DNA from: Panopea generosa
Lineage: Eukaryota > Mollusca > Bivalvia > Adapedonta > Hiatellidae
NCBI GenBank assembly: GCA_029582155.1
Contig: CM055905.1
Location: 66,111,356 to 66,175,355 of the forward strand
Direction of reading: 5' to 3'
Length of the DNA: 64,000 bases
The notes beneath the pieces were generated by a model, which was given only the letters and a program-made list of their open reading frames with translations, was not told where the DNA came from and searched no databases. Both the position numbers and the translations under genes were made by a program. This document shows, piece by piece, positions 6,280 through 63,636 of this stretch (position 1 is the stretch's first letter; the number at the start of each line of letters is the position of its first letter).

Positions 6280-6400
6280 AAGCGGGCGGTAGTGTAGTGG
6301 ATAGAGTGTTGTGCGGCCCATGTCAGAGGTTGTGGGTTTGATCCCAAGCTTGCACTGAGTCCTCTAAACACTAAAACGCAGTACTGGCGATTTGTACGAG
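6280..6400 (+). mobile_element. tRNA-headed SINE fragment, family C
   Basis: ggtagtgtagtggatagagt and a B-box-like ggtttgatcccaag are arranged as in a tRNA gene, but no closed acceptor stem follows. Related minus-strand heads are at ~28020-28105 and ~29150-29260. Confidence 0.55.
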
Positions 6401-14983: not shown

Positions 14984-15297
14984 TTACTCCCAAGGGCCCC
15001 AGTAGCCCCCGAGGTACTTAGGGTTTGAGCGTTTATCATTTGTCGGGTACCTGCAGGGGACAGCCGTCTTCTGATACTCCGTCAATCTATCCAGCATCTT
15101 CACTACCATGGCCGGATTGTCTGCGGACAGGTCATGTCTCTCATTTGGGTCATTTTTAATGTTGAATAACCATACATTCTGTTGGTCATTATATCTTGCC
15201 TGGTTCCCTGCATGTATGTCATCATATCTTCCCGGATTCCGTGTAAAGATGACAGCAGTACGATTCATGGTGGGCGGCGGTACCCAGCTGCCATTAC
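14984..15297 (-). CDS. ARSB: Arylsulfatase exon 8 (terminal)
   Basis: Residues 404-507 and [16 protein letters not shown] begins it; [17 protein letters not shown] and GGYWGPWE end it. Residues 423-441 hold an 11-residue direct duplication (RNPGRYDD / GNQARYND), absent from the plus-strand paralog. A decoy copy of the exon start lies 89 bp upstream. Confidence 0.93.
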
Positions 15298-19224: not shown

Positions 19225-22200
19225 GAGAGAGAGAGAGAGACAGGGAGGGAGGGAGGGAGGGAGGGAGGGAGAGAGAGAGAGCATTTTTGAAAATGAAAAC
19301 TACTTCATAGCAAAAGGCACTCAAAGTTTTATGGAGTTATCTTGGAACATTTTATTGAGTTCTGCTTCTTATTTGTCAATATCACAAGAAGCACACAGTT
19401 TCAAACATCTAATGACATGGACATGGTAAAAAAAGTACAGTAAAGTGGTTATTTATTATAATGTTACTGTCACCCCTAGTGAAAGCGCCAGCCACACTGG
19501 TCTTATGAGACTCCTTTATGTTGTGCACAGTTACTTCCTAAAAGCTATCCTTGCCAGGCGTCAGACTGTTAGACGATCGGTACCCATCCATTTTACTAGC
19601 TACTGGTTTTTGAGGCAGACACCTTAACCACTAGGCCACAGAAGATGATATTAAGTATTTAGAGGAAAAAATCTCTTTGTGCATACTTTGAACAAATGCC
19701 TCGCATTCGGCCATGAAGATGAAAGACATGAAAATGAGAAGATCTTATGACAATGATCCATAACTTTAAGATTAGGCAATTGTTTCTTGATTAAATTAAA
19801 GATTAATTGTCTGATTATCATCACTGCCAGTTTAATTTTAAAAAAAAAATCCTTTCAAACCACAAAAAATTTAAAATAAAAAATAAAATCCTTTCCACCT
19901 CCCACATTTTAAGAAATATTTGGATGATAATCTAGCAATTAATTTACAATGGCCTTATTGTGGTTAAGACAAAAAATAATATTTCTAGAGTACCTGTTGA
20001 GAAAACGAGTACGGTATTGTCCCAGAGTCCACGTCTCTTCATTGCTGCGGTGATATTACCAACAGCTTCATCCATGCACGTTACCATACCTACAACACAT
20101 TTGTAAATATTACAGCCATCGAGGGCTAACAAACAATCAGTTCACCTAACCACTCTTTCCTGGGATCCCAAAAGGTTATCCAGTACTCAAACATCTCCAC
20201 AAGTAACTGATTACTTTCCCACTTGAATCAGCGGTGAGACACAAATCATAATGAGACGCGATTTCATTGATCAATCATCACAGAGACTGCAGTCTGGCGG
20301 GGATTCGAACTCACGATCCCTGGATTGAAGGTCAGATGCACTACCAACTTAGTTAACCTGGGGTCATATTCACTAACCGTTCTTGAGAATATTCTGAGAC
20401 TTCAGCTTGAAAATCCAAATTTCAACCTTAGATATCTAGTTTCCCATGATAGATAGAATAAATTTGAGAGTTTATTTGGCTATATATTAGGTGTCTCAAT
20501 ATGTTTGCAAATTTTGACCTCAAACAATAGTTTTTAAGTGTCTTTTTCAAAATTCATTCTTGAGTTAAAGTCTAAGAATATTCTTAAGAATGGTTGGTGA
20601 ATACCAACCCTGGACTGACTCGGTGGGCTAGAAAACTTACTGCAGTTTACGTTTATTTCATAAAGATCACGAGACCAGTGTATATAATTCTTTACAAAGA
20701 GCTAACCTACTTAATGTAAAAAACAGATTTAAAAGCAAACACGAATTTTCAGATTTTTTTTTTTAAAAGAGGAAAAAAGTGTTGTAAATTGCTAGGACAC
20801 CAGCAGTTACCATACCAGCATACGTTCTCCGCTGTTTATCTTTGATATCCTTGTATGGCTCCGTATATTTGTCCGGCACTTGTAGTGGTGAATGAACAGC
20901 TTGGAATGGAAGGTACACAAACAAAGGCTGAAAAATATAATCATAAACAAAAATTAGAATGGGGTTTAATGTAATTTTCAACACATTTCAAGTTATATAT
21001 GGCGTATCCAGTTTCATTGGTGGAGGAAGACCTCAGAATAAATCTGAGCAGAATCACCGACCTTCCACAAGTAACTGGCAAGATTAATTGATTAAAAATG
21101 CCAGCTCCAATTCCCAACACTATAGTTATCAGGAGATAACAAACTATTTCAAACCTATTTACTGTTAGATGTAAACCACACAAAATCATACAACCTAGAA
21201 TGACCAAATGTACCCTTAGGCCATTATAAATTAATTGCTAGATTATCATCCAAATTTTTCTAAAAACGGGGAGGGTGGGATGATTTCATTTTTATCTTTT
21301 ATTTTAAATTTTTGATGTTTTTTTTTTTTTATGAAAATAAAAGGGTCTGGGCAGCATGAAATTTTTTTTTCAATTTGTTTTTTTTTTCTCCCTCAGTTGG
21401 AAAAAAAGACATGATTTTTAAATTAGGAGGCCATGGATTTATAAGGGTAAAAAACTCTGTGATCTGTTACATGTTCTAATAAGATGAACCCTCCACGACT
21501 TTATTACATACTTTTAAATGAACTGATCTGAATTTTTATGATATAGGGCCTATTACAGCATATTACAGAACTTTTCTGTAATAATGTTTAACATTTTTGA
21601 ATCTAACACCAATTCGCAAACAACCACGATTGACGACAGGCAGAAAGCCGGTAAAATTACATTTGCTTCAAGGACTATTTTAATTGTTGCTAGTACCACC
21701 GTTTTTCTGCAAACTGGCAACTTTCTCACATAAAGTTTTTGGAGCAAGTGGGATTCAAATTTACGACCTTAGCAGTGAGATATAAGTGATCTTGAGATGG
21801 TGCCTACCCGGTAAGACCACTCAACCACGGATGACCCTTAACCTTAGATGTTAACTGCACCAATTCCTACTTGCCTTTTCTGGTTGGTGTTTATCTATGA
21901 TGTCAATCACACGGTTGGAAAATAAATGGGTGGAGTATGAGCCATTGGCGTTAGTGACCGGTTCCAAGTTATCACGGAGATCATAACCACACGCCTTCCC
22001 ACTACATCTATAGTGTGTGTAGTAATTCTCACTGCCCGTCAGGTAACCTTGAGAACAAGAGTATAACAATTTTGTTCATGTATTTACTGACATATACCAT
22101 ATTTGACCTGATGCTAGTGGGACTATTGGTCCGTCCACTGGCCACGTTTGTCCAAGAAAATACAATAAAGAGTTTACTATGATAAAGTCAGCTTGTCTAA

Positions 22201-24443: not shown

Positions 24444-26616
24444 CAAGTTTCTCATATTTCTGTTGTCATTGTTTGAATCTTCTGTTCCATTTGAACAAGA
24501 ACATAAAAACATTTATATTAAATGACAGTAATTCTGCAGCTCTGCAGATGTATCAACCCATATGATTTGCCAAACGTATCTATTTAAATTATTTCATTTA
24601 TTAAACAGGTATGCAATATTTAATTAATTAATTAATTCATAATTTGAAATTCAGGCTTAATACCACAAATAAACACCTTCAAATATATTTTTAAAGAAAA
24701 CTGGAACAATTTCAACACAACAACCTAGACAGGATATTAAATAAGGATAAAATAAAACAAATAAAGGGAGGTAATATCAAAGGAAAAAAAAGGTTATTTT
24801 TCAATTTCTGTATTCACTGAACATTCTCAGCTTCAAAAAAACAAATGTTTAAAATTTTGATGTCATTATGTGCACCTTACATTACAATCAGTAAATTATG
24901 AATAAGTAATTTGTCAAAGTATTTGTTAATTGCAGCTATTTTATCAATATTTAGGAGAGAAAGAGAGAGAGAAAGAGAGAATGAGAGACAGTAATTCTGC
25001 AGCTCTGTAGATGTAACAAACCATATGATATGCCAAACATATGTTTTTAAATTATTTAATTTATTAAACAGAGATGCAATATTTAATTAATTCATAATTT
25101 GAATGTCATGCTTAATTCCACAGATAAACAACTTAAAATATATTGTTCAAGATTATTGGAACAAATTCAAAACAACCTGTACAGGTTATCAAACAATAAA
25201 TAAAGGTATAAAGGGAGTTAATAATATATAATAAAAAAAGAAGATTTTCAATTCCTGAAATTACTTATAACAGTTAATTTAATTGCTTTGTTTTTTTTAA
25301 ACATATTTAAGGGATGATATTTTTCACTGGTCCAATTCTCTGGAAATGTTTCAAAAATTATTGTAATAAATGTTAAGACTATGTTAGACAGGCCTCTACA
25401 GCACTGCAGATAGCCTCATATCCAATACCAGCTGGAATTACGATTTATAAAAAATATATAGATGTTTTATTTCCAGTAATTAATATTTAAATATAGGCAA
25501 TTTTTCTTTAATTCAATTTTCCTAATATGAATTATTATTATAAAATATTCAATTACTGCAAACAATCAAAACAAATACTGAAGAAACAACAAAATAACCA
25601 ATAATTAATGATTGGCTCACAATAAAGGGAGGTAATAATATACTTTATACAAAAATTACTGTAATGAAAAGGGTAATAATACAACTTTTGAACAATCAAA
25701 TGTTTTTTCATCAGATAATTCTATATTTGTTTTCTTTCTTCTGTTACTTCTAGGAATAATTTTCTGATTATTATAGAAAGTTTTGTTTCTGAGGGAGATT
25801 TAAAATAGAAGTTCAGTGAGATGTGCTTGAATAAGGCAGTAGGAGTGTGTTTGACCCCCTCATACCCCCACCCCAAAGCCCTTGGAGCAAGCATGCTAAC
25901 CACTGGACAACTGCAACACCAGTTCATACCTATATCAAGCTATCCAACACCCTCTTACAGTATTTTGTACAGACACAAAGTGCACAGGCTTAAGTCATTT
26001 AAATCACTGACTAACACATAAGTTCAGTTAGATATTTCACATGCACTGGGTATGACTGTACACAGGACGACTACTGTAAATCCCTTGCGAAGGATTCGCA
26101 TGCATTCACAGTACCATGTCCAGCTAAGGCACTGTAGGTGTGAGTTAAAGAAGTCCTGGACGAAACACCACTGGGATTCGATCCAGGGACCTCTCGTTGC
26201 AAGAGAGAAAAACAAATTCATTTAAATTTTTGAGAAAAATTGATGCACAACAAAATCTCACAAAATCTCATTTTCAGTTTTCTCCACTTCCATTCATCAC
26301 AGGAATACAAGTTAAATTTATTGCTTCGTAAAATGAAATTACCTACTAATTTTTTAAACATGACAAATACCTGATACCTCCCGGACAGCAACTGACTGCG
26401 TGTTGGTGTACAGATGGGTTGCACATAGTAGTTCTCAAGTCTAACACCAGATTTTGCCAACATGTCCAAGTTTGGCGTCTTAATTTCAGATCCATGATAA
26501 CCAATGTCATGGAAACCGTAGTCATCAGCAACAATCAGTATGATATTCGGCTGCTTTCCATCACAGATATAAAGCACACATATCAAGATGACCACTTCTA
26601 TTATCAGCTGCTTCAT
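14984..26616 (-). CDS. ARSB: Arylsulfatase B-type sulfatase, complete 8-exon gene
   Basis: ARSB-type enzymes remove the 4-sulfate from N-acetylgalactosamine units of dermatan/chondroitin sulfate, usually in lysosomes. Eight exons (26371-26616, 22883-23069, 21875-22047, 20816-20927, 19994-20089, 17856-18099, 15822-15973, 14984-15297) join in frame into 1524 bp, 507 residues plus stop (human ARSB: 533). Residues ~1-18 are a signal peptide ([17 protein letters not shown]). Sulfatase residues seen: metal ligands D31-D32, formylglycine motif C69-T-P-T-R73, K123 and H125 (GKWH), H214, D272-N273 (STDNGG) and K290. C-terminal ends WGPWE. N-glycosylation sequons include N179 and N251. The start is the ATG directly before the signal peptide; an upstream in-frame ATG at 26692 would add 26 residues. 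Intron 3 is GC-AG; the others are GT-AG. Substrate is inferred from family; ARSI/ARSJ-type activity is not excluded. Confidence 0.93.
15298..15415 (-). pseudogene. Decoy copy of the exon 8 start with its own acceptor
   Basis: An acceptor tgctacag is followed at 15386 by gtaatggtagctgg, a copy of the exon 8 start with one base missing. If spliced here the frame reaches TGA about 12 codons in, so it cannot replace exon 8. It matches the repeated exon starts at 1508-1679. Confidence 0.8.
15435..15710 (+). mobile_element. R3 fragment and SINE B fragment in intron 7
   Basis: R3 words (cattgattggtcagttgctt, gggaaagtttgaatga) at ~15470-15520, then a SINE B from the gttcgagttacgct B box to gtgttgaaattggg. 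Both are in the 524-bp intron 7. Confidence 0.7.
15822..15973 (-). CDS. ARSB: Arylsulfatase exon 7
   Basis: Residues 353-404, [17 protein letters not shown] to [10 protein letters not shown], matching human [10 protein letters not shown] and NWKLLTGYPG. Acceptor atgtttcag, donor atccag|gtaggt, phase 2 to 1. Confidence 0.92.
16038..16247 (+). mobile_element. MITE family 3 (TTAA-flanked, piggyBac-like), copy 1
   Basis: 210 bp between TTAA sites (16034-16037, 16248-16251). Ends ccctttacttcat and ataaaggg are inverted. TTAA plus CCCTTT ends is the piggyBac pattern. The interior has a near-perfect hairpin at ~16135-16195 (gtgcaggaagtgttcagatt arm around attacga). It lies in intron 6. Confidence 0.8.
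16507..17043 (+). mobile_element. MITE family 3, copy 2, expanded by a minisatellite
   Basis: Between TTAA at 16503-16506 and 17044-17047. It carries the same hairpin and right end (acgcgtatctatggagtaaa) as copy 1, but its left part is expanded to 537 bp by ~25-bp repeats. Confidence 0.78.
16520..16880. repeat. ~25-bp minisatellite inside MITE 3
   Basis: Unit tatagacgcctttggacacc plus tctaa, about 14 copies with small variants. Copy 1 of the MITE (16038) has one unit; the inverted copy at 28122-28491 has about 8. Confidence 0.9.
17071..17123. repeat. CA microsatellite
   Basis: About 26 CA units in intron 6, just past the TTAA site of MITE 3 copy 2. Confidence 0.95.
17124..17529. other. AT-rich part of intron 6
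   Basis: Short (TA)n at ~17395-17414 and repeated aagcattgaaattt words; no gene. Confidence 0.5.
17530..17815 (+). mobile_element. SINE family D in intron 6
   Basis: Head gcggtggtctagtggtacag with a degraded B box (gttttgatcccaggct), body gggtagttctaggtc-like and 3' end gttgaaagcgacactgaaca followed by caa repeats. Copies at 9905(-) and 32500(+). Confidence 0.8.
17856..18099 (-). CDS. ARSB: Arylsulfatase exon 6
   Basis: Residues 272-353, [17 protein letters not shown] to WNSIS, with the metal ligands D272-N273 and active-site K290 ([11 protein letters not shown]). Acceptor ttcgtcag, donor atcag|gtgaga, phase 1 to 2. A MITE lies only 20 bp upstream of the acceptor. Confidence 0.93.
18122..18299 (-). 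mobile_element. MITE family 1 next to exon 6 acceptor
   Basis: 178 bp, inverted relative to 2606-2783, with cagtcacacctgt and acaggtttcactg ends. TA is clear on one side (18120-18121). It ends 20 bp upstream of the exon 6 acceptor in gene orientation. Confidence 0.8.
18300..18955. other. Intron 5 interior, nothing seen
   Basis: No coding or recognised repeat. Confidence 0.45.
18958..19115 (+). mobile_element. SINE family B, 3'-truncated at a GA tract
   Basis: Head ctccatggccaagtgggcta, B box gtaggttcgagtcatgct and core as far as gaggtcttcctcttc, where GA repeats begin. Confidence 0.75.
19125..19282. repeat. GA/GGGA microsatellite
   Basis: GA units with interspersed gggagg runs. It creates open frames on both strands of Ser/Leu or Arg/Glu repeats, which are artefacts. 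Confidence 0.95.
19283..19993. other. Intron 5, donor-proximal, nothing seen
   Basis: A tRNA-like B-box tail (ctaggccaca region, ~19600-19640) may be a SINE remnant. No coding beyond exon 5. Confidence 0.4.
19994..20089 (-). CDS. ARSB: Arylsulfatase exon 5
   Basis: Residues 240-272, [16 protein letters not shown] to VLVFSTD (last codon split). Acceptor gttgtag, donor caacag|gtactc, phase 1 on both sides. The human counterpart is MVSLMDEAVGNVTAAL to FSTD. Confidence 0.92.
20105..20370 (-). mobile_element. SINE family A in intron 4
   Basis: Minus orientation: gccatcgagggctaacaaac block, tttcctgggatccc, complement of the B box (gattcgaactcacgatccct) and an A-box-like end. The atca tail is short. 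Confidence 0.8.
20385..20612. mobile_element. MITE with long imperfect inverted ends, intron 4
   Basis: About 228 bp. Left end tcatattcactaaccgttct and right end agaatggttggtgaatacca pair over ~45 bp at roughly three in four positions. No target duplication could be fixed with certainty. Confidence 0.65.
20816..20927 (-). CDS. ARSB: Arylsulfatase exon 4
   Basis: Residues 203-240, [18 protein letters not shown] to TYAG, including the active-site H214. Acceptor tttttcag. Donor gctg|gtatgg in phase 1 was chosen over gtatg|gtaact because only the first joins in frame to exon 5. Confidence 0.9.
20955..21085 (-). mobile_element. SINE family B 3' half, intron 3
   Basis: ggggtttaatgtaattttca to cttccacaagtaactggcaa in reverse; it stops at the middle of the element. 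The 5' half of a SINE B is at 21700-21835. Confidence 0.7.
21086..21695. other. Intron 3 interior, AT-rich
   Basis: Poly(T) runs at ~21310-21395. The segment aattgctagattatcatcc (~21228) with an 'aaaacggg...gatg' context recurs loosely at ~23395-23455 and ~5705-5730. No gene seen. Confidence 0.45.
21700..21838 (-). mobile_element. SINE family B 5' half, intron 3
   Basis: Core from accgtttttctgcaaactgg through actttctcacataaagtttt and the complement of the head (gaccttagcagtgagatata), ending at ccacggatgaccc. With 20955-21085 it may be one SINE split by a ~600-bp insertion. Confidence 0.65.
21875..22047 (-). CDS. ARSB: Arylsulfatase exon 3 (GC donor)
   Basis: Residues 145-202, [15 protein letters not shown] to DKHQPEK, matching the human LLGSEDYYSHERC segment. 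Acceptor ctcaag. It ends gaaaag|gcaagtagg: joining here to exon 4 keeps the frame and the conserved EKPLF(V/L)YL sequence, and no GT nearby does. Confidence 0.9.
22048..22461. other. Intron 2, acceptor-proximal, nothing seen
   Basis: No coding or recognised repeat. Confidence 0.4.
22462..22915 (-). repeat. Nine tandem copies of the exon 2 3' end and donor
   Basis: Units of 47 bp (donor-proximal) or 50 bp (distal), each with ~33 bp of exon 2 (cccacaagtagaggatttga onward, ending ctatg) and the donor gtaagac. The donor GT complements are at 22881, 22834, 22787, 22740, 22693, 22646, 22596, 22546 and 22496. The first is the one used in the gene model. All nine retain GTAAGAC. Confidence 0.93.
22883..23069 (-). 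CDS. ARSB: Arylsulfatase exon 2
   Basis: Residues 83-145, from [15 protein letters not shown] to SRGFDSFYG, with the active-site GKWH at 122-125. Acceptor ttttatag, donor ctatg|gtaagac, phase 0 to 1. The 3' end and its donor are the first of nine tandem copies (22462-22915). Confidence 0.93.
23070..24035. other. Intron 1, 5' (low-coordinate) part
   Basis: AT-rich. No gene; a 99-codon open frame at 23150-23449 is low complexity and unsupported. Confidence 0.5.
24036..25700. repeat. Degenerate ~460-610-bp tandem repeats in intron 1
   Basis: Three to four diverged copies share, in order: gcaatatttaattaattcat (24038, 24612, 25077), ggaacaa-ttcaacacaaca, ggatattaaataa, ataaagggagg and aattatgaataagtaatttg (24288, 24895). 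GA microsatellites sit at equivalent places in two copies (24348-24440, 24953-24985). Confidence 0.75.
24348..24442. repeat. GA microsatellite
   Basis: Mostly GA with a few AAAG steps; the short open frames across it are artefacts. Confidence 0.95.
26050..26345. repeat. tRNA-like SINE remnant and R2 fragment beside exon 1
   Basis: At ~26165-26205 the complement of a B box (gggattcgatccagggacct) suggests a SINE head on the minus strand. From 26245 to 26345 sequence matches repeat R2 (aaatctc, ttccattcatcacaggaata), stopping 25 bp from exon 1. Confidence 0.6.
26371..26616 (-). CDS. ARSB: Arylsulfatase exon 1: signal peptide, formylglycine site
   Basis: 82 codons from ATG at 26614-26616 to the donor cag|gtattt, phase 0. 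It contains [20 protein letters not shown] and the modification motif [14 protein letters not shown]. The Cys at residue 69 is the predicted formylglycine. Confidence 0.93.
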
Positions 26617-26814
26617 TGTGAACTGCAAGGAATTATATAGAGAAGGAAATTCTTGGAATGACATGCCGTGTAAGAATCCCATGTAAGCATGCATTGTTTG
26701 GCGTATAATTAATTATTTTATTCTGTATCGAAATATAGAAAACACATCATTTCTAATCTGCATATATTATGATGTTTTAAATCTGAGTCGAAATATAGGT
26801 CTGGCAATATCTTG

Positions 26815-34282: not shown

Positions 34283-37200
34283 AAGTTGCTCCGTTCAGTA
34301 TATATTGTAATGAAGATATTAGAAATACAAAAGTGGCGGGTTAGTTGCTCTGTTCAGTAAATATTGTGATGAAGATATTGGAAATACAAAAGTGACTGGT
34401 TAGCTGCTCCGTCCAGTATACATTGTGATGAAGATATTGGAAATACAAAAGTGGTGGGTTAGCTGCTCCGTTCAGTATATATTGTGATGAAGATATTGGA
34501 AATACAAAAGTGGCGGTTAAGCTGTTCTGTTCAGTATATATTGTGATGAAGATATTGGAAATACAAAAGTGGCGGGTTAGCTGCTCCGTTCAGTATATAT
34601 TGTGATAAAGATATTGGCAATACAAAAGTGGCTGGTTAGTTGTTCTGTTCAGTATATATTGTGATGAAGATATCGGAAATACAATAGTGGCGGGTTAGCT
34701 GCTCCATTAGGTATATATTGTAAGAATATATTGGAAATACAAAAGTGGCCGGTTAGCTGCTCCGTTCAGTATACATTGTGATGAATATATTTGAAATACA
34801 AAAGTGGCGGGTTAGTTGCTCCGTTCAGTATACATTGTGATGAAGATATTTGAAATACAAAAGTGGCGGGTTACCTTCTCCGTTCAGTATATATTGTGAT
34901 GAAGATATTGAAAATACAAAAGTAGAGGGTTAGCTGTTCCGTTCAGTATATATTGTGATGAAGATAATTGAAATACACAAGTGGCGGGTTAGCTGCTCCG
35001 TTCAGTATACATTGTGATAAAATATTGGAAATACAAAAGTGGCGGGTTAGTTGTTCCGTTCAGTATATATTGTGATGAAGATATTGGAAATACAAAAGTG
35101 GCCGGTTAGTTGCTCCGTTCAGTGTACATTGTGATGAACATATAAGAAAAACAAAAGTGACAAGTAAGTTGTTCCGTTCAGTATATGTTGTGATGAAGAT
35201 ATTGGAAATACAAAAGTGGCGGGTAAGTTGTTCCGTTCAGTATACATTGTGATGAAGATATAGGAAATACAAAAGTGGCGGGTAAGTTGTTCCGTTCAGT
35301 ATATATTGTGATGAAGATATAGGAAATACAAAAGTGGCGGGTAAGTTGTTCCGTTCAGTATATATTATGATGAAGATATTGAAAATACAAAAGTTGCGAG
35401 TTAGTTGTTCCGTTCAGTATAAATTGTGATGAAGATATTGTAAATACAAAAGTGTCGAGTTAGTTGTTCCATTCAGTATATATTGTGATGAAGATATTGG
35501 AAATACAAAAGTGACGAGTTAGCTGTTCCGTTCAGTATACATTGTGATGAAGATATTGGAAATACAAAAGTGGCTGGTTAGCTGCTCCGTTCAGTATATA
35601 TTTTGATGAAGATATTGAAAATACAAGAGTGGCGGGTAAGCTGTTCTGTTCAGTATATATTGTGATGAAGATATAGAAAACACAAAAGTGGCGGTTAGCT
35701 GTTCCGTTCAGTAGACATTGTGATGAAGATATTGGAAATACAAAAGTGGCTGGTTAGCTGCTCCGTTCAGTATATATTGTGATGAAGATATTGAAAATAC
35801 AAAAGTGGCGGGTAAGCTATTCTGTTCAGTATATAATGTGATGAAGATATTGGAAATATAAAAGTGGCGGGTTAGTTGTTCCGTTCAGTATATATTGTGA
35901 TGAAGATATTGAAAATACAAAAGTGGCGGGTAAGCTGTTGTGTTCAGTATATGTTGTGATGAAGATATTGGAAATACAAAAGTGGCGGGTAAGTTGTTCC
36001 GTTCAGTATATATTGTGATGAAGATATTGAAAACACAAAAGTGGCTGGTTAGCTGTTCAGTTCAGTATACATTGTGATGAAGATATTGAAAACACAAAAG
36101 TGGCGGGTAAGCTGTTCCGTTCAGTATACATTGTAATGAAGATATTGAAAACACAAAAGTGGCGGGTTAGCTGTTCCGTTCAGTATACATTGTGATGAAG
36201 ATATTGAAAACACAAAAGTGGCGGGTTAGCTGTTCCGTTCAGTATATATTGTAATGAAGATATTGGAAATACAAAAGTGGCTTGTTAGCTGTTTCGTTCA
36301 GTTTATATTGTGATGAAGATATTGAAAACACAAAAGTGGCGGGTTAGCTGTTCTGTTCAGTATATATTGTGATGAAGATATTGAAAATACAAAAATGGCG
36401 GGTTAGCTGTTCCGTTCAGTAAATATTGTGATGAAGATATTGAAAACACAAAAGTGGCGGGTTAGCTGTTCCGTTCAGTATACATTGTGATGAAGATATT
36501 GAAAACACAAATGTGGCGGGTTAGCTGTTCCGTTCAGTATACATTGTGATGAAGATAGTGGAAATACATAAGTGGCTGGTTAGCTGTTCCGTTCAGTATA
36601 TATTGTGATGAAGATATTGGAAATACAAAAGTGGCGAGTTAGTTGTTCCGTTCAGTATATATTGTGATGAAGATATTGAAAATACAAAAGTGGCGGGGTA
36701 GCTGTTCCATTCAGTATATATTGTGATGAAGATATTGGAAATACAAAAGTGGCGGGTTAGTTACTCTGTTCAGTATATATTGTGATGAAGATATTGGAAA
36801 TACAAAAGTGTTAGGGTAGTTGTTCCGTTCAGTTTATATTGTGATGAAGATATTGGAAATACAAAAGTGGCGAGTTAGCTGTTCCGTTCAGTATATATTG
36901 TGATGAAGATATTGTAAATACAAAAGTGGCTGGTTAGCTGTTCCGTTCAGTATACATTGTGATGAAGATATTGGAAATACAAAAGTTGCGGGTTAGCTGT
37001 TCCGTTCAGTATATATTGTGATGAAAATATTGTAAATACATTAGTGGCGGGTTAGCTGTTCCGTTCAGTATACATTGTGATGAAGATATTGGAAATACAA
37101 AAGTGGCTGGTTAGCTGCTCCGTTCAGTATATATTGTGATGAAAATATTGTAAATACAAAAGTGGTTGGTTAGCTGTTCCGTTCAGTATATATTGTGATG

Positions 37201-40200
37201 AAGATATTGTAAATACAAAAGTGGCGGGTTTACTGCTCCATTCAGTATATATTGTGATGAAGATATTGGAAATACAAAAGTGTCGACTTAGCTTCTCCGT
37301 TCAGTATACATTGTGATGAAGGTATTGGAAATACAAAAGTGGCTGGTTAGTTTCTCCGTTCAGTATATATTGTAATGAAGATATTGGAAATACAAAATTG
37401 ACTGGTTAGCTGCTCCGTTCAGTTTATATTGCGATGAAGATATTGGAAATACAAAAATGGCCAGTTGGCTGTTCCATTCAGTATATATTGTGATGAAGAT
37501 ATTGTAAATACAAAAGTGGCTGGTTAGCTGCTCCGTTCAGTATATATTGTGATGAAGGTATTGGAAATACAAAAGTTGCGGGTTAGTTGTTCCGTTCAGT
37601 ATATATTGTGATGAAGATATTGGAAATATAATAGTGGCGGGTTAGTTGTTCCGTTCAGTATATATTGTGATGAAGATATTGAAAATACAAAAGTGGCGGG
37701 TAAGCTGTTGTGTTCAGTATATGTTGTGATGAAGATATTGGAAATACAAACGTGGCGGGTTAGGTGTTCTGTTCAGTATATATTGTGATGAAGATATTGA
37801 AAACACAAAAGTGGCTGGTTAGCTGTTCAGTTCAGTATACATTGTGATGAAGATATTGAAAACACAAAAGTAGCGGGTTAGCTGTTCCGTTCAGTATACA
37901 TTGTGATGAAGATATTGAAAACACAAAAGTAGTGGGTTAGCTGTTCCGTTCAGTATACATTTTGATGACAATATTGAAAACACAAAAGTGGCGGGTTAGC
38001 TGTTCCTTTCAGTATACATTGTGATGAAGATATTGAAAACACAAAAGTAGCGGGTTAGCTGTTCCGTTCAGTATACATTGTGATGAAGATATTGAAAACA
38101 CAAAAGTGGCGGGTTAGCTGTTCCGTTCAGTATACATTGTGATGAAGATAGTGGAAATACAAAAGTGGCTGGTTAACTGTTCCGTTCAGTATATATTGTA
38201 ATGAAGATATTGGAAATACAACAGTGTCGGGTTAGCTGCTCCGTTCAGTATATATTGTGATGAAGATATTGGAAATACAAAAGTGGCAGGTTAGCTGCTC
38301 CGTTCAGTATATGTTGCGATGAAGATATTGAAAATACAAAAGTAGCGGGTTAGTTTTTCCGTTCAGTATATATTGTAATGAAGATATTGGAAATACAAAA
38401 GTGGCGGGTTAGTTTCTCTGTTCATTATATATTGTAATGAATATATTGGAAATACAAAAGTGACTGGTTAGCTGCTTCGTTCAGTATATATTGCGATGAA
38501 GATATTGAAAATACAAAAGTGGCGGGTTAGTTTCTCCGTTCAGTATATATTGTAATGAAGATATTGGAAATACAAAAGTGGCGGGTTAGTTTCTCTGTTC
38601 AGTATATATTGGAATGAAGATATTGGAAATACAAAATTGACTGGTTAGCTGCTCCTTTCAGTTTATATTGCGATGAAGATATTGGAAATACAAAAATGGC
38701 GGGTTTGCTGTTCCGTTCAGTATATATTGTGATGAAGATATTGTAAATACAAAATTGAGTGGTTAGCTGCTCTGTTCAGTATATATTGTAATGAAGATAT
38801 TGGAAATACAAAAGTGGGGGGTTAGTTGTTCTGTTCAGTATATATTGTAATGAAGATATTTGAAATACAAAAGTGACTGGTTAGCTGCTCCCTTCAGTTT
38901 ATACTGCGATGAAGATATTGAAAACACAAAAGTGGCGGGTTAGCTGTTCCGTTCAGTATACATTGTGATGAAGATATTGAAAACACAAAAGTGGCGGGTT
39001 AGCTGTTCCGTTCAGTATACATTGTGATGACGATATTGAAAACACAAAAGTGGCGGGTTAGCTGTTCCTTTCAGTATACATTGTGATGAAGATATTGAAA
39101 ACACAAAAGTAGCGGGTTAGCTGTTCCATTCAGTATACATTGTGATGAAGATATTGAAAACACAAAAGTGGCGGGTTAGCTGTTCCGTTCAGTATACATT
39201 GTGATGAAGATAGTGGAAATACAAAAGTGGCTGGTTAACTGTTCCGTTCAGTATATATTGTAATGAAGATATTGGAAATACAACAGTGGCGGGTTAGCTG
39301 CTCCGTTCAGTATATATTGCGATGAAGATATTGAAAATACAAAAGTAGCGGGTTAGTTTCTCCGTTCAGTATACATTGTGATGAAGATAGTGGAAATACA
39401 AAAGTGGCTGGTTAACTGTTCCGTTCAGTATATATTGTAATGAAGATATTGGAAATACAACAGTGGCGGGTTAGCTGCTCCGTTCAGTATATATTGCGAT
39501 GAAGATATTGAAAATACAAAAGTAGCGGGTTAGTTTCTCCGTTCAGTATATATTGTAATGAAGATATTGGAAATACAAAAGTGGCGGGTTAGTTTCTCTG
39601 TTCAGTATATATTGTAATGAAGATATTGGAAATACAAAATTGACTGGTTAGCTGCTCCTTTCAGTTTATATTGCGATGAAGATATTGGAAATACAAAAAT
39701 GGCGGGTTTGCTGTTCCGTTCAGTATATATTGTGATGAAGATATTGTAAATACAAAATTGAGTGGTTAGCTGCTCTGTTCAGTATATATTGTAATGAAGA
39801 TATTGGAAATACAAAAGTGGGGGGTTAGTTGTTCTGTTCAGTATATATTGTAATAAAGTTATTGGAAATTCAAAAGTGGCTGGTTAGTTGTTCCGTTCAG
39901 TATATATTGTAATGAATATATTGGAAACACAAAAGTGACTGGTTAGCTGCTCCGTTCAGTATATATTGAGATGAAGATATTGAAAATATAAAAGTGTCGG
40001 GTTATTTGCTCCGTTCAGTATATATTGTAATGAAGATATTTGAAATACAAAAGTGACTGGTTAGCTACTCCGTTCAGTTTATACTCCGATGAAGATATTG
40101 GAAATACAAAAGTGGCGGGTTGGCTGTTCCGTTCCGTATATATTGTGATGAAGATATTGTAAATACAAAAGTGAGTGGTTAGATGCTCTGTTCAGTATAT

Positions 40201-41607
40201 ATTGTAATCAAGATATTGGAAATACAAAAGTGGCGGGTTAGTTGTTCCGTTCAGTATATATTGTAATGAAGATATTGGAAATACAAAAGTGGCTGGTTAG
40301 CTGCTCCGCCCAGTATATATTGCGATGAAGATATTGAAAATACAAAAGTGGCCGGTTAGTTGCTCCGTTTAGTATATATTGTAATGAAGATATTGGAAAT
40401 ACAAAAGTGACTGGTTAGCTGCTCCGTTCAGTTTATATTGCGATAAGGATATTGGAAATACAAAAATGGCGGGTTGTCTGTTCCGTTCAGTATATATTGT
40501 GATGAAGATATTGTAAATACAAAAGTGAGTGGTTAGCTGCTCTGTTCAGTATATATTGTAATGAAGATAATGGAAATACAAAAATGGCGGGTTAGTTGTT
40601 CCGTTCAGTATATACATGTATTGTAATGAAGATATTGGAAATACAAAAGTAACTGGTTAGTTGCTCCGTTCAGTATATATTGCGATGAATATATTGAAAA
40701 TACAAAAGTGGTGGGTTAGTTGCTCCGTTCAGTATATATTGTAATGAAGATATTGGACATACAAAAGTGACTGGTGAGCTGCTCCGTTCAGTATATACTG
40801 CGATGAAGATATTGGAAATACAAAAGTGGCTGGTTGGCTGTTCCGTTCAGTATATATTGTGATGAAGATATTGAATATACAAAAGTAAGTGGTTAGCTGC
40901 TCTGTTCAGTTTATATTGTAATGAAGATATTGGAAATACAAAAGTGGCGGGTTAGTTGCTCCGTTCAGTATATATTGCGATGAAGATATTGGAAATACAA
41001 AAGTGACTGGTTAGCTGCTTTGTTCAGTATATATTGTGATGAAGATATTGGAAATACAAAAGTGGCGGGTTAGCTGTTCCGTTCAGTTGATATTGTGATG
41101 AAGATATTGGAAATACAAAAGTGAGTGGTTAGCTGCTCTGTTCAGTATATATTGTGATGAAGATATTGGAAATACAAAAGTGATTGGTTAGTTTCTCCGT
41201 TCAGTATGTGTTGTGTTGAAGATATTGGAAATACAAAAGTGACTGGTTAGTTTCTCCGTTCAGTATGTATTGTGATGAAGATATTGGAAATACAAAAGTG
41301 GCTGGTTAGTTTCTCCGTTCAGTATGTATTGTGATGAAGATATTGGAAATACAAAAGTGACTGGTTAGTTTTCCATTCAGTATGTATTGTGATGAAGATA
41401 TTGGAAATACAAAAGTGATTGGTTAGTTTCTCCGTTCAGTTTGTATTGTGATGAAGATATTGGAAATACAAAAGTGATTGGTTAGTTTCTCCGTTCAGTA
41501 TGTATTGTAATGAAGATATTGGAAATACAAAAGTGACTGGTTAGTTTCTCCGCTCAGTATGTATTGTGATGAAGATATTGGAAATACAAAAGTGGCTGGT
41601 TAGTTGC
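34283..41607 (+). repeat. 59-bp satellite array, about 124 monomers
   Basis: Consensus ggttagctgttccgttcagt, atatattgtgatgaagatat, tggaaatacaaaagtggcg (59 bp). Monomer spacing measured at several points is 59 (for example 34501 to 34560 to 34619). No open frame over 60 codons was seen in it. Segmental copies occur at exact multiples of 59: 38641 and 39644 are 1003 bp (17 units) apart, 35931 and 37701 are 1770 bp (30 units) apart, and a 3-unit (177 bp) block repeats at 39228 and 39405. Variants such as gaaaacacaaaag occur in blocks. Confidence 0.96.
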
Positions 41608-56057: not shown

Positions 56058-56345
56058 ACCCCACCATTGATTTTTGTTCTTTATTCTATAGTAAATATTA
56101 AAAGTTTGAAGGCTTGTCATGCATAGAGAGACCTAAGTGAAAGAAGTTCATTAACTGTTTGTCAACATCTGCACTACCAAAATATGATGAGAAAAGTAGG
56201 GGTGATGTGTCATATAAGAGATTCTGCTCAGTGTGTACACTGGTGACAAAGTGAAAGTAGACTTCTGAAATAATGTATTCATATCCCAATTTTAAAGCAT
56301 CATTTTTTTTTCTAAATTCACAATGCTTTTAAAATGTTCAAAATA
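56058..56345 (-). repeat. Dispersed repeat R1, copy 4 (partial)
   Basis: Reverse of 54290-54575, from the caccattgatttttgttctt end to the middle of the family. Confidence 0.8.
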
Positions 56346-56459
56346 CAGAGAAATAATGAAAACAATTAATTTTGATAATTTCATTTCCAATATGCCTGGT
56401 TGATAATTGTGCTCGATAATGATGTGATATGTGTTATGTTTAATTGGTTAAGTTGGAAG

Positions 56460-56776
56460 CCCTTTGTTGAGTTTGTTCTTCATTCCATAGTTAATATAAA
56501 AAAAAAGTGCAAGCTTGTCATTAATTCAAGGACCCAAATGAAAAATTTGAAACTGTTGCTTACATTTTATTATTTTGTCAACCTCTGCATTAACAAAATA
56601 TGAGAAAAGTAGGTGTTGTGTAGGCACATATTTTTCTGTTTAGTGTGTACACTATTGACATAGTGAAAGTAAACATCTATAAATGAAATTATGTATTCAT
56701 GTCCCATTTTCCAAGCATTTTTCTTCTAAATTCACAAATCAAACGAGACAGTGTTTTCAAAATGTTAAAAATACAT
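56460..56776 (-). repeat. Dispersed repeat R1, copy 5, right part (split)
   Basis: Reverse of the R1 middle and left part, ending atgttaaaaatacat where the TIR element begins. Its continuation is at 61297-61440. Confidence 0.82.
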
Positions 56777-57249
56777 CGTTCGCTCGACGCAAACCCCAGT
56801 AACTGACATTTTTTCCCAAAATGACTTTTTTCAATAATTTAGTATATAAAGGTAAGTTACACCTCCTATCAAAGTATGGTGGTTGAAATGTTTTTTTAAT
56901 GTTTTAATTAAAAAAATAGCAAAATCCAGTAACTGCATTCATGATTTTTCTCAACGCAAAACTCCAGTAACTGCACTTACTGAGTTTTTGCACTAAGTTT
57001 TTAAAGTGCAATACAAAAAATCAATAATGCAAAAAAAACCCAGTATTATCTAAGATTTTATAACTTTCTTGCACTATAACTTTTTATTGACACTCCCTCC
57101 CCATTGATAAGAAAAAATATATCTGGATCTGGATGACATCAGCATGTTTTTGAATTCTATAGATATAAATGTATTAGATTTTTCTACTTCTGAAATACAA
57201 TGTGAAAGTGATGATGTTGATGATGATGTTGTTAGTGATAACATTGATT

Positions 57250-59400
57250 GTAATTCTGTTGCTAGAGAGGATGGCAGTGAGATTGGCGATAGAGGCGATG
57301 GTAGCGAGATTAATTATTATAGTGGTAGTGTTGGTAAGTTTGGTGATTGAGGTGATGGAAGTGAAATAAGTGATAGAGACGATGATAGTGAGATTATTTA
57401 TTATAGTGGTAGTGTTGGTGAGTCTGGTGATAGAGAGGATGTCAGGGAGATTAGTGATAGAGGTGATGATAGTGAGATGAATTATTATAGTGGTAGTGTG
57501 CTGGGCCCGATTAGCTCAGCCGGTTACTCGTCTGACTATCAATCCAGGGGTCGTGAGTTCGAATCCCCGCCCGGCAACAGTCTTCGTGATGATTGATATA
57601 CGATATTGATATATATATATTGTGTCTCATTATCATTCTTCTCTCACCACTGATTCAATGGGAAAGTTATCAGTTACTTGCTGAGATGGAGTGTGCTCGA
57701 GGACTGGTTAATCCCAGGAAACAGTGGTTAGGTTAACTGATCGTCTGTTAGCCCTCGATGGCATAAAAATGACGCTAAATATTCAATCAATCAATCAATA
57801 TAGTGGTAGTGGTGGTAAGTCTGGTGATAGAGAGGATGGCAGTGAGATTAGTGATAGAGGCAATGGAAGTGAGATGAATTATTATTGTGGTAGTGTTGGT
57901 AAGTCTGGTGATAAAGGGGATGGTAGTGAGATTGGTGATAGAGGCGATGATAATGAGATAAATTATTATAGTGGTAGTGGTGACACGTCTGGTGATACAG
58001 GGGATGGTTGTGAGATTGGGGATTGAGGTGATTGTAGTGAGATTAATTATTATAGTGGTAGTGGTGGTAAGTCTGGTGAAAGAGTGGATAGTAGCGAGAT
58101 GAAAAGTGATAGTGGTGGTAAGTCTGGTGATAGAGGCCGTTACTATGAGATGAAAAATGGTAGTGTTGGTAAGTCTGGTGATAGAGGGGATGGCAGTGAG
58201 ATTAGTGATAGAGGAATTGATAGTGAGATGAATTATTATAGTGGTAGTGTTGGTTAGTCTTGTGATAGAGGGGATGGTATTGACATTGGTGATAGAGGCG
58301 ATGGTAGGGAGATGAATTATTATAGTGATAGGGGTGACAAGTCTGGTGATACAGGGGATGGTAGTGAGATTGGGGATTGAGGCGATGATAGCGAGATGAA
58401 TTATTATAGTGGTAGTGGTGACAAGTCTGGTGATACAGGGGATGGTAGTGAGATTGGTGAGAGGTGATGGTAGTGAGATGAATTATTATAGAGGTAGTGG
58501 TGGTAAGTCTGGTGAAAGAGTCGAGAGTGGATGGTAATGAGATGAATAGTGAAAGTGGTGGCAAATCTGGTGATAGAGGCAATTACAATGAGATGAAAAA
58601 TGGTAGTGTTGGTAAGTCTGGTGATAGAGGCAATGGAAGTGAGATGAATAGTGGTAGTGTTGGTAAGTCTGGTGATATAGGCAATGGTAGTGAGATGAAT
58701 AGTGGTAGTGGTGGTAAGTCTGGTGATAGAGGCGATGGTAGTGAGATGAATAGTGGTAGTATTGGTAAGTCTGGTGATAGAGGCAGTGGTAGTGAGATGA
58801 ATAGTGGTAGTGGTGGTAAGTCTGGTAACAGGGGCGATGGTAGTGAGATGAATAGTGGTAGTGGTGGTAAGTCTGGTAACAGGGGCGATGGTAGTCAGAT
58901 GAATAGTGGTAGTGGTGGTAAGTCTGGTAATAGGGGCGATGGTAGTGAGATTAATAGTGGTAGTGGTGGTAAGTCTGGTAATAGGGGTGATGGTAGTGAG
59001 ATGAACAGTGGTGGTGTTGGTAAGTCTGGTGATAGAGGCAATGGTAGTGAAATGAATAGTGGAAGTGATGGCAAGTCTTGTGATAGAGGCGATGGTAGTG
59101 AGATGAATAGTGGTAGCATTGGTAAATCTGGTGATAGAGGCGATGGTAGTAAGATGAATAGTGGTAGTGGTGGTAAGTTTGGTGATAGAAGAGATTGTAG
59201 TAAGATTAGTGATAGAGGCAATGTTAGTGAAATGCATAATGGTAGTGGTGGTAAGTGTGGTCAAAGAGGGGATGGAACTAAGATTGGTGATAGAGGCGAT
59301 GGAAGTGTGATGAATAGTGGTGGTAAGTGTGGTGAAAGAGGGGATGGTGCTGAGATTGGTGATAGAGGCGATGGTAGTGATATAAATAGTGGTAGTGGTG
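57250..59400 (+). repeat. 84-bp/51-bp coding minisatellite
   Basis: The 84-bp unit (two gatagaggcgatggtagtga blocks plus a tattatagtggtagtg block) dominates to ~58500; the 51-bp unit lacks one block and dominates after. Tandem order and 3-bp-multiple lengths are visible throughout. Confidence 0.9.
57504..57800 (+). mobile_element. SINE family A, full-length, nested in the array
   Basis: tRNA-like head ggcccgattagctcagccgg, B box gtgagttcgaatccccgccc, body and a (atca)n tail. tatagtggtagtg flanks both sides, although this word is also part of the host array, so the duplication is not proof on its own. Confidence 0.88.
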
Positions 59401-59669
59401 GCAAGTCAGGTAAAAGTGTTAGTGTTAGAAGGAATTCTACTGAGATGAATAGTGAAATAAATGGTAATTGTGATAAGAGTTGTAATATAGAAATGAGTGC
59501 GAATACAGTTGATGATGATGATGACAGACCATTGATTTACTATACACGACCCTTTAGGAATTTAATCCCTCACACCTCTGAACCCAATAGCCCCTCTAAT
59601 CAATGTCAAATGGGAAATGTCTTAAATGTAGGAAATCAAAGTAGGGTGAGAAAACGAAAAAAAAAATAG

Positions 59670-59934
59670 GAATCTAACTGGAAAAGAAATATTATAAAAA
59701 AATAAAACAAACAGAGGTCCTAGCTATACAAGTCATTCTTGGGTGAACAAATATGCTAAATCAGTTAAGAAAGGTTGTGGATTGTTTTGTAAAAAGAAAT
59801 GTCAACTACATATTACAGAAACCCAAAAAGAAACTTTATTCAGTGATTTCTGGGACCTTGATCATATTGATCGCCAAAGAGACTATATGTCTCGAACATT
59901 TCTAGAACAACCAAGAGTTAGAAAATCTAAATAA
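59670..59934 (+). pseudogene. Cys-rich N-terminal module, frameshifted from the repeat ORF
   Basis: Just after the repeat ORF stop, short frames read NWKRNI, then RGPSYTSHSW, then KGCGLFCKKKCQLHITETQ and FSDFWDLDHIDRQRDYMS, ending TAA. Order and spacing (WKRN, G-x-x-Y, C-x3-C-x2-KC with K/C variants, FW-L, QR-Y) resemble the N-terminal region of large uncharacterised transposon-borne proteins of invertebrates as I recall them. Stops and frameshifts lie in A-rich runs at 59660-59710. No downstream domain follows, so the gene is truncated. Similarity is from memory and needs a profile search. Confidence 0.5.
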
Positions 59935-60960
59935 GACCAATAGTAAAATGAAGGTTTCAAAGAAATACTGTTTGTTTATTAATAGTAATAAAGCAGCCAA
60001 CTTGTCTGTTAATGTATTATTAATTTTTAGCATAACTGGCAAATATAGTTATAGTTACTATTAATGTTGAATGACTTCTATTGTAATTTAATTAATGAAA
60101 AACGACACGTTATTTATAATATGATGACTCAAAGCAACACATTTTTAGATAAAACACTGCTAAAAGATGAAAATTGTGGCTTTTTTTTTTAAATTACTAA
60201 AGATTATAATTGATAGATACTGCTCAAATAATGTTAAGAATTTTATTTTAATTACGATATGAAATAGTGTTTATAAAAGGAATACCTGAAGAACTGCAGA
60301 GTTTCAGCAAATTTTATTGTATTACTCAAATTGTTGCTTCTTAAGACATGCATGAGCCACAGTGTTCCTATTCTTGCCATCACTCATATGGCTCCCTGAA
60401 ACCATACAAGGGTTGATAATTTAACCACAATAGTGTACATGACAAAAAATGATAAAATGAACATGACACCCATTCGGAGGATTCCTACCCCTCTGCAGAG
60501 ATCGGCAGTGATTCTATTCTTAGCCGAAACCACACAGGCTAGTTATAAAAGAGAAATATGAATCAAACTGTTTATGGTTTTAAAACAGTTTATAATTCCA
60601 CAGAGCTTTCTGAAGCTTAATAAATATCAGTGTAAGAAAAGAAATGTTTCATTTTAATATTATTTGATTTTTTAATTTAAAAACTAATAAAAAAACAAAA
60701 ACAATTTTATAAGAAGCAGTTACTGTAAGTTATAGTAAGTCTTTTGTTATGTGCATGTTTACTATGTATATTTGTATTATGGGCCAGAGGCCAGAATAAC
60801 TTTTGAATAAAAAAGTGTTTGAATAAATATTGTCTACTGTAAAAGTCAAATAAACTCTTTTTATCCATTAAACTAATGTTATTATACTAGTTGTACTGTT
60901 TAGTAGATCTTTGGCTATTTTAATTGTACAATATACCTTTTAGAGTTAATACTGATTTTT
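59935..60960. other. Interior of the TIR element, AT-rich
   Basis: No coding region recognised; this is where a transposase body would be expected if the element were complete. Confidence 0.5.
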
Positions 60961-61296
60961 TGCATGAATAAATTTAAGAGCAAAAAACCAATAAACGCAC
61001 TAATTGGAGTTTTGCACAAATATATTTCAGCGCAAAAAATCAGTAATTGCTGTTACTGGAGTTTTGCGTCGATTTTTTCAACGCAAATTTCCAACTTAAT
61101 TTTTCAGATCACTTTTAATACTTTGCTTATATTTTTTTTTATACAAGATACAAATGTGAAGGACTGTTTTTAATGAATATGCTTAATTATAAGATTAAAC
61201 TTCAGTCTTTTTAACTAGTAATTGATATAATCAGTTTTTTGTCTCTCCTGAAAAGTAAGAAAAATGCAGTTACTGGGGTTTTGCGCTGAGCCAACG

Positions 61297-61440
61297 ACAT
61301 CAACAATGCCATTCAAATAAAAAATGAGCATTAAAATAAGGGAAATGCATTTTTAAAGAAGAAACAATGATTATTTACAACCGCCATTTTGCGACTACCC
61401 CACGAAGCACTTCCTTTTTCCAATGGTGATACTATGCTCT
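61297..61440 (-). repeat. Dispersed repeat R1, copy 5, left part (split)
   Basis: Resumes at caacaatgccattcaaat and runs to gcgactaccccacgaagcac, the family's other end, completing the copy broken at 56776. Confidence 0.85.
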
Positions 61441-61565
61441 CTCTTCTTATGTGAGCTGAATTTGAATCCTACGGTATAATGTTAACGTAACAACAATGCC
61501 TACTGAATATTATCTTTTATTACTTAAATTGAATCAAAAACATTTCTCCGTTTCTGTTTTTCTCG

Positions 61566-61855
61566 CCGGGCCCGATTAGCTCAGTCGTTAGCGCGTCAAT
61601 CTAGGGGTCGTGAGTTCGAATCCTAGCTCGGCCACAATCAATGTGATGTTTGATAAACGGCATTGAGTATCATTATCATTCGTCTCTCACCTCTGATTCA
61701 AGTAGGAAAGTTATAAGTTACTTGCGGAGATGTGTGCTCGAGTACTGGTTAACCTTCCAGGATCCCAGGAAACAGTGGCTAGGTTAACTGACCGTCTGTT
61801 AGTACTCGGTGGCATAATAATGACGCTAAAAATTCATGCATTCAATCAATAAATT
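61566..61855 (+). mobile_element. SINE family A, full-length
   Basis: Head gggcccgattagctcagtcg, B box gtgagttcgaatcctagctc, body with gaaacagtggctaggttaac, tail ttcaatcaat. Confidence 0.88.
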
Positions 61856-61940: not shown

Positions 61941-62151
61941 GTTATAAACAAAATCCAAACTAGACATGTGGTGTTAATACATTGATATTCACGGCTATGT
62001 TGATGATTATATTATTAGCATGAAGAAACATTAACAGACATGTAGTGTGTGTAATATACTACATCAATATTCACGGCTATATTGATACTTATATTTAACA
62101 TGACGGAACACTAACAGACATGTAGTTTTGACAACTACAACATCGGCCATT
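61941..62151 (+). promoter_or_regulatory. Probable 5' UTR of the HEPN gene with an 83-bp duplication
   Basis: A strong acceptor-like ctcatccacag at 61930-61940 suggests that the first coding exon begins at 61941. The region then holds two ~83-bp direct copies (atattcacggctat at 61983 and 62066; taacagacatgtag ends). Several upstream ATGs are present. The exon boundary is inferred, not shown by transcript data. Confidence 0.4.
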
Positions 62152-62724
62152 ATGGCCACTGTCCAAAGAACACTGAGCAATCCACTTTACAGAAACTGGG
62201 TCAAAGGTGGCCTAGTTGTCAAGTTTACAAGGGATGGGCTCCAGTGTTTCGTTGACGGTACAGTCAAGAACTTTCAGACCAAATGTCTGAATGATATTAG
62301 GACAAGGAAAGGTTTACCACTAGATACGGTATGCCATTTGTGCACAACACAAAATGTTCTCACATGTCCAACAAATGGGATATGCAAAGATAATGAACAT
62401 GGTCTGTGCATATACCATGACCTTAACGACCCACTGAAGAAACACAGACGCTCGTGTCCAAGTGCGATATGCAAAGATCTACGGGACGAAATCACGAAGA
62501 GCCACAAATTCCGCGTACCTTCCTGGCGTAACACACATGCCCTACTCTGGTGCAGCAGCAGTTGGGAGATAGCCAAATGCTTCATGGCTGCCGATGGTTA
62601 TAGTTCAGTGTCTTCTGCTGAAAAAACAGATTTCCTAGGACTGGTCAGCGTAGTGATAAACCTAAAGTATTTCCAGACCATGGTTAAAGATGATCTGTCT
62701 AAGAAAATCAACTTATTTAGCCAG
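62152..62724 (+). CDS. HEPN-protein coding exon 1
   Basis: 191 codons, ATG with G at +4, ending agccag|gtatat. Without splicing the frame would read YCIKPLIDNV and stop at 62760, which departs from the family. Confidence 0.82.
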
Positions 62725-63636
62725 GTATATTGTATCAAACCACTCATTGACAATGTATAACTCATGTATATACGTATATGAGGTAAACTGCTGTTCTAAA
62801 GTCACTCTTAAATGCCTTCATTTGCCATTTATACTTTATGTGAATTGATATTTGATAAACAATGGTTAATTAATCTAGAGTTCTCTGTGTGAATTATAAA
62901 ATGTTGAAATATTCCCTATCCCTTATACATGTGAATATAGATATTGCCCCCCCCCCCCCCCAGCACTAAACATATATATTTTCAAGCTGGTAGAGATAAT
63001 ATTTTATGCATCTTAATTTTTAATAAACTTACATATTCAGCCTCATCGTAACGTATTAAATTCCACCAGGTCCTTCGTGGCCGAGTGATTAAAGGCGGCT
63101 TCTCAAGTTCAATTAATATTTCACCGCTGTCAGACCGTAGGTTCGAGTCCCACTTGCTCCAAAAACCTATGTGAGAAAGTGAGCCAATAGTAACTGCGTA
63201 AGGTTCTACTCAGATTTATTCTGAGGTTTTCCTCCACCAATTAAACTGGATATGCCATATATAACCTGAAATGTGTTGAAAATGGAGATACACCCCATTC
63301 AATTTTTTTCTACCATATTGATTATAAGCCGTTATATAAGTGTAACTAAGTGCAGATGTTTATACCTATTAACAGGTACTCGCTTTACATCAAATTTCCA
63401 AGTTGTACAATGTTCTTGAATATTATATGTTTACACTAATATATTTTGATATGTGTAAAACCTTTATTCATAAACAGGCAAGAAACATTCGGAATGCCAT
63501 CATGCACACGTCCTCTTACAAACTGACTGACGAGGTACTGAACGGCTACATTGATACTATGATCCAGCTACTGAACGATCCAGTATACCTGGCAAGTGAT
63601 AAGCATGCCCAGTCTTCTATCACCAAGCTAAATCAG
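62152..63636 (+). CDS. CXorf38-like / DZIP3-type HEPN protein (5' part)
   Basis: Two exons (62152-62724, 63478-63636), both phase 0, give 244 residues and the gene runs off the window. Residues 8-40 (LSNPLYRNWVKGGLVVKF, then DGLQCFVDGTVKNF) match the start of human CXorf38 (YKNWVKAG..., LQGFVGREVLSFH). A Cys/His-rich middle (C61, C64, C72, C78, C86, H89, C102, C107) and W125...WCSSSWEIAKCFM follow, as in CXorf38 (AWEVAKAFM). Exon 2 has ARNIRNAIMHTS, where R196-N-x3-H201 is the R-x4-H motif of HEPN domains. In this family HEPN segments are linked to RNA binding or cleavage; activity here is not known. ATG at 62152 was chosen because it directly precedes the conserved start; the frame is open upstream only from a TTG. 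Bivalves carry many such genes, often named DZIP3-like. Confidence 0.82.
62946..62962. repeat. Poly(C) run
   Basis: About 16 C in the intron. Confidence 0.9.
63068..63310 (+). mobile_element. SINE family B in the HEPN-gene intron
   Basis: Head tccttcgtggccgagtgatt, B box gtaggttcgagtcccacttg, core and the end atgtgttgaaaatggagata. It takes up about a third of the 753-bp intron. Confidence 0.85.
63478..63636 (+). CDS. HEPN-protein coding exon 2 (R-x4-H motif)
   Basis: 53 codons after the acceptor ttcataaacag, ending aatcag|gtaaac. It holds ARNIRNAIMHTSSYKL and an amphipathic helix (YIDTMIQLLNDPVYL), like CXorf38 CRNEIMHSSEMKV. If unspliced the frame would stop two codons later. Confidence 0.82.

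Follow-up and report, generated by a model that had tools for sequence, protein, structure and literature searches.

A non-autonomous, internally deleted transposon and a full-length relative joining a tegument-like protease to DUF7869 in the Panopea generosa genome

The window, the whole 64,000-nucleotide stretch that was analysed (G000:C12:66111356-66175355 of the 1.47-Gb host assembly), carries at 56777-61296 a 4520-bp element with terminal inverted repeats (TIRs) and a 4-bp target-site duplication (TSD; acat at 56773-56776 and 61297-61300), as the sequence-only reading had proposed. The two TIRs, aligned over 37 bp, differ by three substitutions and two 1-base gaps, and a second inverted repeat of 44 bp lies ~175 and 225 bp inward from the element ends. 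The TIR core, CGCAAAACCCCAGTAACTG (≤3 mismatches), matches the window three times, all within this element, where 0.01 matches are expected. The empty site described in that reading also holds: with a single acat between them, the flanks align across the junction to three uninterrupted R1 copies in the window, 54556-54121 (79%), 458-43 (73%) and 7636-7369 (73%), each of which has AAAATACATCAATAATGCC as its junction reading. A fourth, 56073-56347 (69%), aligns with just the left flank and ends at the junction. The features are given below, with full-length positions referring to the copy on C13 that is described later.

56773-56776, no strand: left TSD, acat (TSD comparison of 21 copies; empty-site alignment)
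56777-56813, plus: left TIR, 37 bp (TIR alignment; ends of 21 copies)
56777-57131, plus: left end, 90% identical to full-length bases 1-350 (alignment to the C13 copy)
56951-56994, plus: left subterminal inverted repeat with the CCAGTAACTG motif (inverted-repeat alignment)
57127-57131, plus: left deletion junction (full-length 350 to 1942), protease part gone (alignment; 19 of 20 shortened copies have a block that begins at 1942)
57127-57249, plus: gene remnant from residue ~270 of the protein, directly before the linker (alignment to the C13 copy)
57250-59430, plus: expanded linker minisatellite, main units of 84, 51, 27 and 78 bp (repeat analysis and alignment)
57500-57799, plus: tRNA-like SINE within the array (matches 61565-61851 and other window copies)
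59421-59992, plus: remnant reaching protein residue ~899 that covers the end of the linker and the Cys-rich part; one stop, two frame changes
59698-59931, plus: 78-aa open frame, 84% identical to C13 residues 802-876 over 59698-59922
59992-59998, plus: right deletion junction (full-length 3830 to 5320), DUF7869 part and stop codon gone (20 of 20 shortened copies)
59998-60279, plus: 3' non-coding region, 89% identical to full-length 5320-5607
60280-60542, plus: extra segment, not in the full-length copy; one other copy (L020) has extra sequence there too
60543-61296, plus: right end, 90% identical to full-length 5599-6371
61029-61072, minus: right subterminal inverted repeat
61260-61296, minus: right TIR, 37 bp (TIR alignment)
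61297-61300, no strand: right TSD, acat (TSD comparison of 21 copies; empty-site alignment)

The surrounding sequence holds several other features. An open frame with DUF4559 (62104-62757, plus, E 2.5e-13) lies directly right of the element, and besides the SINE in the transposon array there are tRNA-like SINE copies at 61565-61851, 3118-3326, 3758-3995 and 20115-20336. At 34290-41603, 123.9 copies of a 59-bp unit form a 7.3-kb tandem array that has a strong positive GC skew (0.32-0.39). A Sulfatase N-terminal stretch (PF00884) is found at 26218-26709 (minus) and a Sulfatase_C-like stretch (PF14707, under its cut-off) at 14984-15373 (minus), the latter resembled, by eye, by a C-terminal stretch at 1458-1939 (plus).

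The internal sequence of the element could be traced through the 78-aa frame. When this frame was used to search the host genome, at least 148 matches were obtained (best 150 of 184 candidates scored), and the top one outside the window falls in a 1360-aa frame on C13. A profile search with the window's own frame gave only PIG-X in Pfam, at E 0.073, below its cut-off, and no match in the PDB. The copy surrounding the 1360-aa frame (C13:8227880-8234250) is 6371 bp long with the TSD atat, and its ends agree at 30/30 and 29/30 bases with the common family end, CGTTGGCTC(A/G)GCGCAAAACCCCAGTAACTG. The window copy is collinear with it in five blocks of 75-90% identity (window-element bases 1-355 with C13 1-350; 351-689 with 1942-2319; next, as far as 3830, the linker and Cys-rich part; 5320-5607; and 5599-6371), and is without the protease part and the catalytic part. 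Such collinearity excludes a cargo of unrelated filler. The large G-rich array is the linker of a C13-type gene in expanded form; the element is therefore not without an identifiable partner. The earlier description of a cargo with no recognised transposase, in an element either non-autonomous or of a new type, is right about non-autonomy, while its cargo does contain transposase remnants (59698-59922, 84% to the C13 protein). The interval that it had pointed to, 59670-59934, holds the 78-aa frame matching C13 residues 802-876.

The C13 copy has a single uninterrupted frame, with the first methionine at residue 17, that encodes in order a protease (PF04843), a tandem-repeat linker, a Cys-rich part at about residue 828, and DUF7869 (PF25273). 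Herpes_teg_N (PF04843) spans residues 21-168 with E 1.6e-9 and 38.1 bits, against a cut-off of 25, and covers 1-164 of the 183 profile positions. The protease part retains the catalytic residues, C36 and the Asp-x-His D161-S-H163, a motif set out for VTD deubiquitinases in the available text of PMC9741609, and the PDB search with this part returned one weak match, a herpesvirus large tegument protein at E 0.04. DUF7869 is matched at E 3.8e-15, and its D-D-D residues are D1083, D1160 and D1202. The linker is acidic and Ser/Gly-rich, and the Cys-rich domain is presumed to bind DNA; the sole NCBIfam match, collagen-like and in the linker, was far under its cut-off. A search of the host genome with the catalytic part yielded at least 106 matches (best 100 of 779 candidates scored). 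Among the candidates scored, the C13 copy is the one member of the close family with an intact whole frame, and a few further broken close copies at 82-93% accompany many distant relatives. A second full-length copy, L012, is broken, its pieces being 90 and 94% identical.

The element had been called unassigned, which the host genome does not bear out, since it contains 20 further copies that we fetched as well as the full-length C13 copy. A 19-base TIR pattern (≤2 mismatches) gave 137 and 141 matches in the host genome compared with 4 and 5 for the reversed control. From 100 of the 278 matching places, which included at least 31 facing pairs, 20 pairs were fetched, with the longer ones mostly favoured. 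With the window copy this makes 21 copies on many contigs, of which 20 show an exact 4-bp TSD, mostly ANNT; the one without is L014 (left AGTT, right CTTT). The left-flank 4-mers are ATAT (8), AAAT (3), AGTT (2, one being L014), ACAT (2) and ATGT (2), with AGGT, AATT, ACCT and CATT as single cases. As a control, 67 of 420 mismatched left/right pairings have a common 4-mer, and duplications of other lengths were seen in 8 (2 bp), 2 (6 bp) and 1 (8 bp) of the 21 copies and in none for 3, 5, 7 and 9 bp. These data also bear on the reading of the locus as a block of satellite or minisatellite whose inverted ends arose by chance: ~43% of the window element is indeed tandem array, but the empty site, the TSDs of 20 of the 21 copies across many contigs, and the 278 TIR matches versus 9 in the control refute it and make it vanishingly improbable.

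The shortened copies share their internal junctions. The right junction (3826-3831 to 5320-5323) was found in all 20 of them and the left block beginning at 1942 in 19, L021 showing none; in L010, L014 and L024 the preceding left block stops at 318-340 and not at 350. These common junctions indicate one deletion derivative copied many times, and because its copies nearly always have their own TSD, a transposase supplied in trans is implied, so that the derivative was presumably amplified in trans. Several copies are 98-99.7% alike across the right 1050 bp, suggesting fairly recent movement. The window copy is probably older and nearest to L020, at 92.8%; because of the extra sequence at 60280-60542, the values for these two come out too low when they are compared with the other copies. 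Of the bases in the shortened copies (1.9-7.6 kb), 40-80% are array-like, while the array used as query covers 1.25 kb (20%) of the full-length C13 copy and 0.8 kb (14%) of L012. The main unit lengths are divisible by three, as expected if the array is of coding origin, although certain copy spacings are not, and the array is stop-free in several frames, which explains its long antisense frames. The 56777-61296 element is itself an ordinary internal-deletion derivative, and we are highly confident that it is a non-autonomous copy of a cut-and-paste DNA transposon family with the C13 copy as full-length member.

DUF7869 and the protease recur together in some of the more distant relatives. The alignment of six catalytic regions from the host genome, 26-42% identical to the first, has about 60 invariant columns, the three D positions among them. 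As a profile query against the PDB, this alignment matched no solved structure, and the RNase H-like fold of DUF7869 is thus suggested by the D-D-D pattern alone. The intact 1248-aa frame of L063 (C18) likewise has PF04843 upstream, above the cut-off at E 2.6e-6, and its linker is built of another tandem repeat, with 42-bp units. L068 has PF04843 at 2.8e-4 (21 bits, cut-off 25) and DUF7869 at 7e-9, split by one stop. L064 has a 1277-aa frame (36% identity) with a third, unrelated repeat of 66 bp and DUF7869 at 1.6e-5 (25 bits, cut-off 26), and Pfam recognises no protease in it. Between its repeats and Cys-rich part lies a stretch that is OTU-like by eye (GNCFFHA, HYD), for which Pfam and PDB searches gave no OTU match; a protease swap here is our guess. 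The genome profile scan detects DUF7869 in L065 (26% identity), in whose two long frames no protease was recognised by eye. The ends of both L064 and L065 start with CGTC, with the TSD ATAT. No complete TIR/TSD pair was found for L063 (inverted-repeat search; scan for a 4-bp TSD combined with 14-bp ends at ≤2 mismatches), for L068 (inverted-repeat search only), or for L066, whose left end is CGTC and whose right end does not match.

For seven of the 49 PF04843 matches in the genome, one of the 106 scored catalytic matches follows within 8 kb downstream on the same strand, where ~0.014 such cases are expected; no other arrangement occurs near those 106, and 42 of the 49 have no such neighbour among them. 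Eleven of the 49 Herpes_teg_N matches fall in frames of equal length, 2098 aa (e.g. C9:32728216-32728650), with no scored DUF7869 neighbour, and we suspect that these are Helentrons. A genome scan with PF25273 gave at least 135 matches (best 150 of 224 candidates scored), the strongest of which are split into exon-like pieces (e.g. C9:14204660-14207259), so DUF7869 may not always be in a transposon and may also sit in host genes. Among viral contigs and prokaryote genomes no relative was confirmed, 25 and 9 pattern matches, respectively, being left unconfirmed.

These observations are consistent with the following model. A C13-type protein of up to 1360 aa, combining a cysteine protease of viral-tegument-like deubiquitinase type at its N terminus with DUF7869 as a putative RNase H-like transposase core, would use its Cys-rich part to bind the CCAGTAACTG motifs that recur at both ends, excise the element, and insert it mostly at A-N-N-T with a 4-bp stagger, DUF7869 presumably doing the cutting and joining. 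One derivative would have lost the protease and catalytic parts, retained both ends and been amplified by transposase in trans, its linker array expanding afterwards. The protease may strip ubiquitin from the transposase or from host factors. As far as the available text of PMC9741609 goes, deubiquitinases may spare Helitron enzymes from degradation, and we suggest likewise for this transposase; alternatively, the protease could act on repair, as suggested for Ginger proteases in the accessible part of PMC2836005.

By description, the family probably belongs to the Sola superfamily (DDD, 4-bp TSD), a likeness drawn from published characteristics rather than from sequence or profile comparison. 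We lean towards its being an ordinary Sola1 or Sola2 family, perhaps already catalogued, with DUF7869 as the Pfam name for the Sola transposase core. According to the portions of PMC10741241 and PMC10294476 available to us, Sola elements are cut-and-paste transposons with DDD transposases, 4-bp TSDs, very variable TIRs and lengths of mostly 2-9 kb, and both Sola1 (mean 5445 bp) and Sola2 are present in bivalve genomes; here, 20 of 21 copies have a 4-bp TSD and D-D-D is present as a motif, not as a structure. The N-terminal tegument-like protease, the tandem-repeat linker and the ANNT preference are unlike Sola as described, and those portions mention neither a fused protease nor ANNT targets. 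An undescribed cut-and-paste superfamily, defined by DUF7869, ANNT targets and CGTY termini, would accommodate the CGTC starts and ATAT duplications of the distant L064 and L065, and no paper in the literature searched names DUF7869, although other wording or a wider literature may differ. This proposal is rather unlikely, because DDD with a 4-bp TSD is the Sola description, and L063, L066 and L068 yielded no complete ends in our searches. Equally tentative is a broader scenario, in which a DUF7869 D-D-D superfamily would carry a deubiquitinase in cis, protecting its own transposase or rewiring host repair, with proteases swapped and linkers re-invented between lineages, and shortened elements escaping with a ballooning minisatellite.

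The C13 family is a variant of a known cut-and-paste kind, set apart by its protease fusion and runaway linker minisatellite, which merit a specialist's look. The unusual part is the tegument-like protease fused to a cut-and-paste transposase. DUF7869, an uncharacterised Pfam domain, gains a likely function as transposase core, with element ends and target duplications as the anchor. That a tegument-type protease occurs in a cut-and-paste transposon and not in a Helitron bears on how an enzyme family that herpesviruses also have has moved between genomes, and on the question why ubiquitin-type proteases turn up again and again in unrelated transposons.

Two other known systems combine such parts. 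Ginger1, in the accessible part of PMC2836005, is likewise a cut-and-paste element with a 4-bp TSD and a transposase fused to an OTU or Ulp1 protease, but it has a Gypsy-type integrase, TGTNR ends, CCGG/CCGT targets and a C-terminal protease. The C13 family differs in having DUF7869, the only domain that Pfam finds in the C-terminal part, CGTT ends (termini CGTTGGCTC), ANNT or CATT targets, and an N-terminal protease of another class. Pfam gave no Helentron Rep/helicase match in the scanned pieces of the 1360-aa protein, and Helentrons are not known to have TIRs or TSDs. A literature search for tegument, deubiquitinase, transposase and transposon together returned PMC9741609 alone, and other wording or a wider literature may hold more. 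Its available text places most non-viral VTD domains in Helitrons and reports cnidarian fusions to several transposon-associated domains. Helentrons with VTD deubiquitinase domains thus share with the C13 family a tegument-like cysteine protease with Asp-x-His in a transposon protein (PMC9741609, as available), but they have Rep/helicase and AP-endonuclease parts, whereas the C13 family has a DDD domain, TIRs and TSDs.
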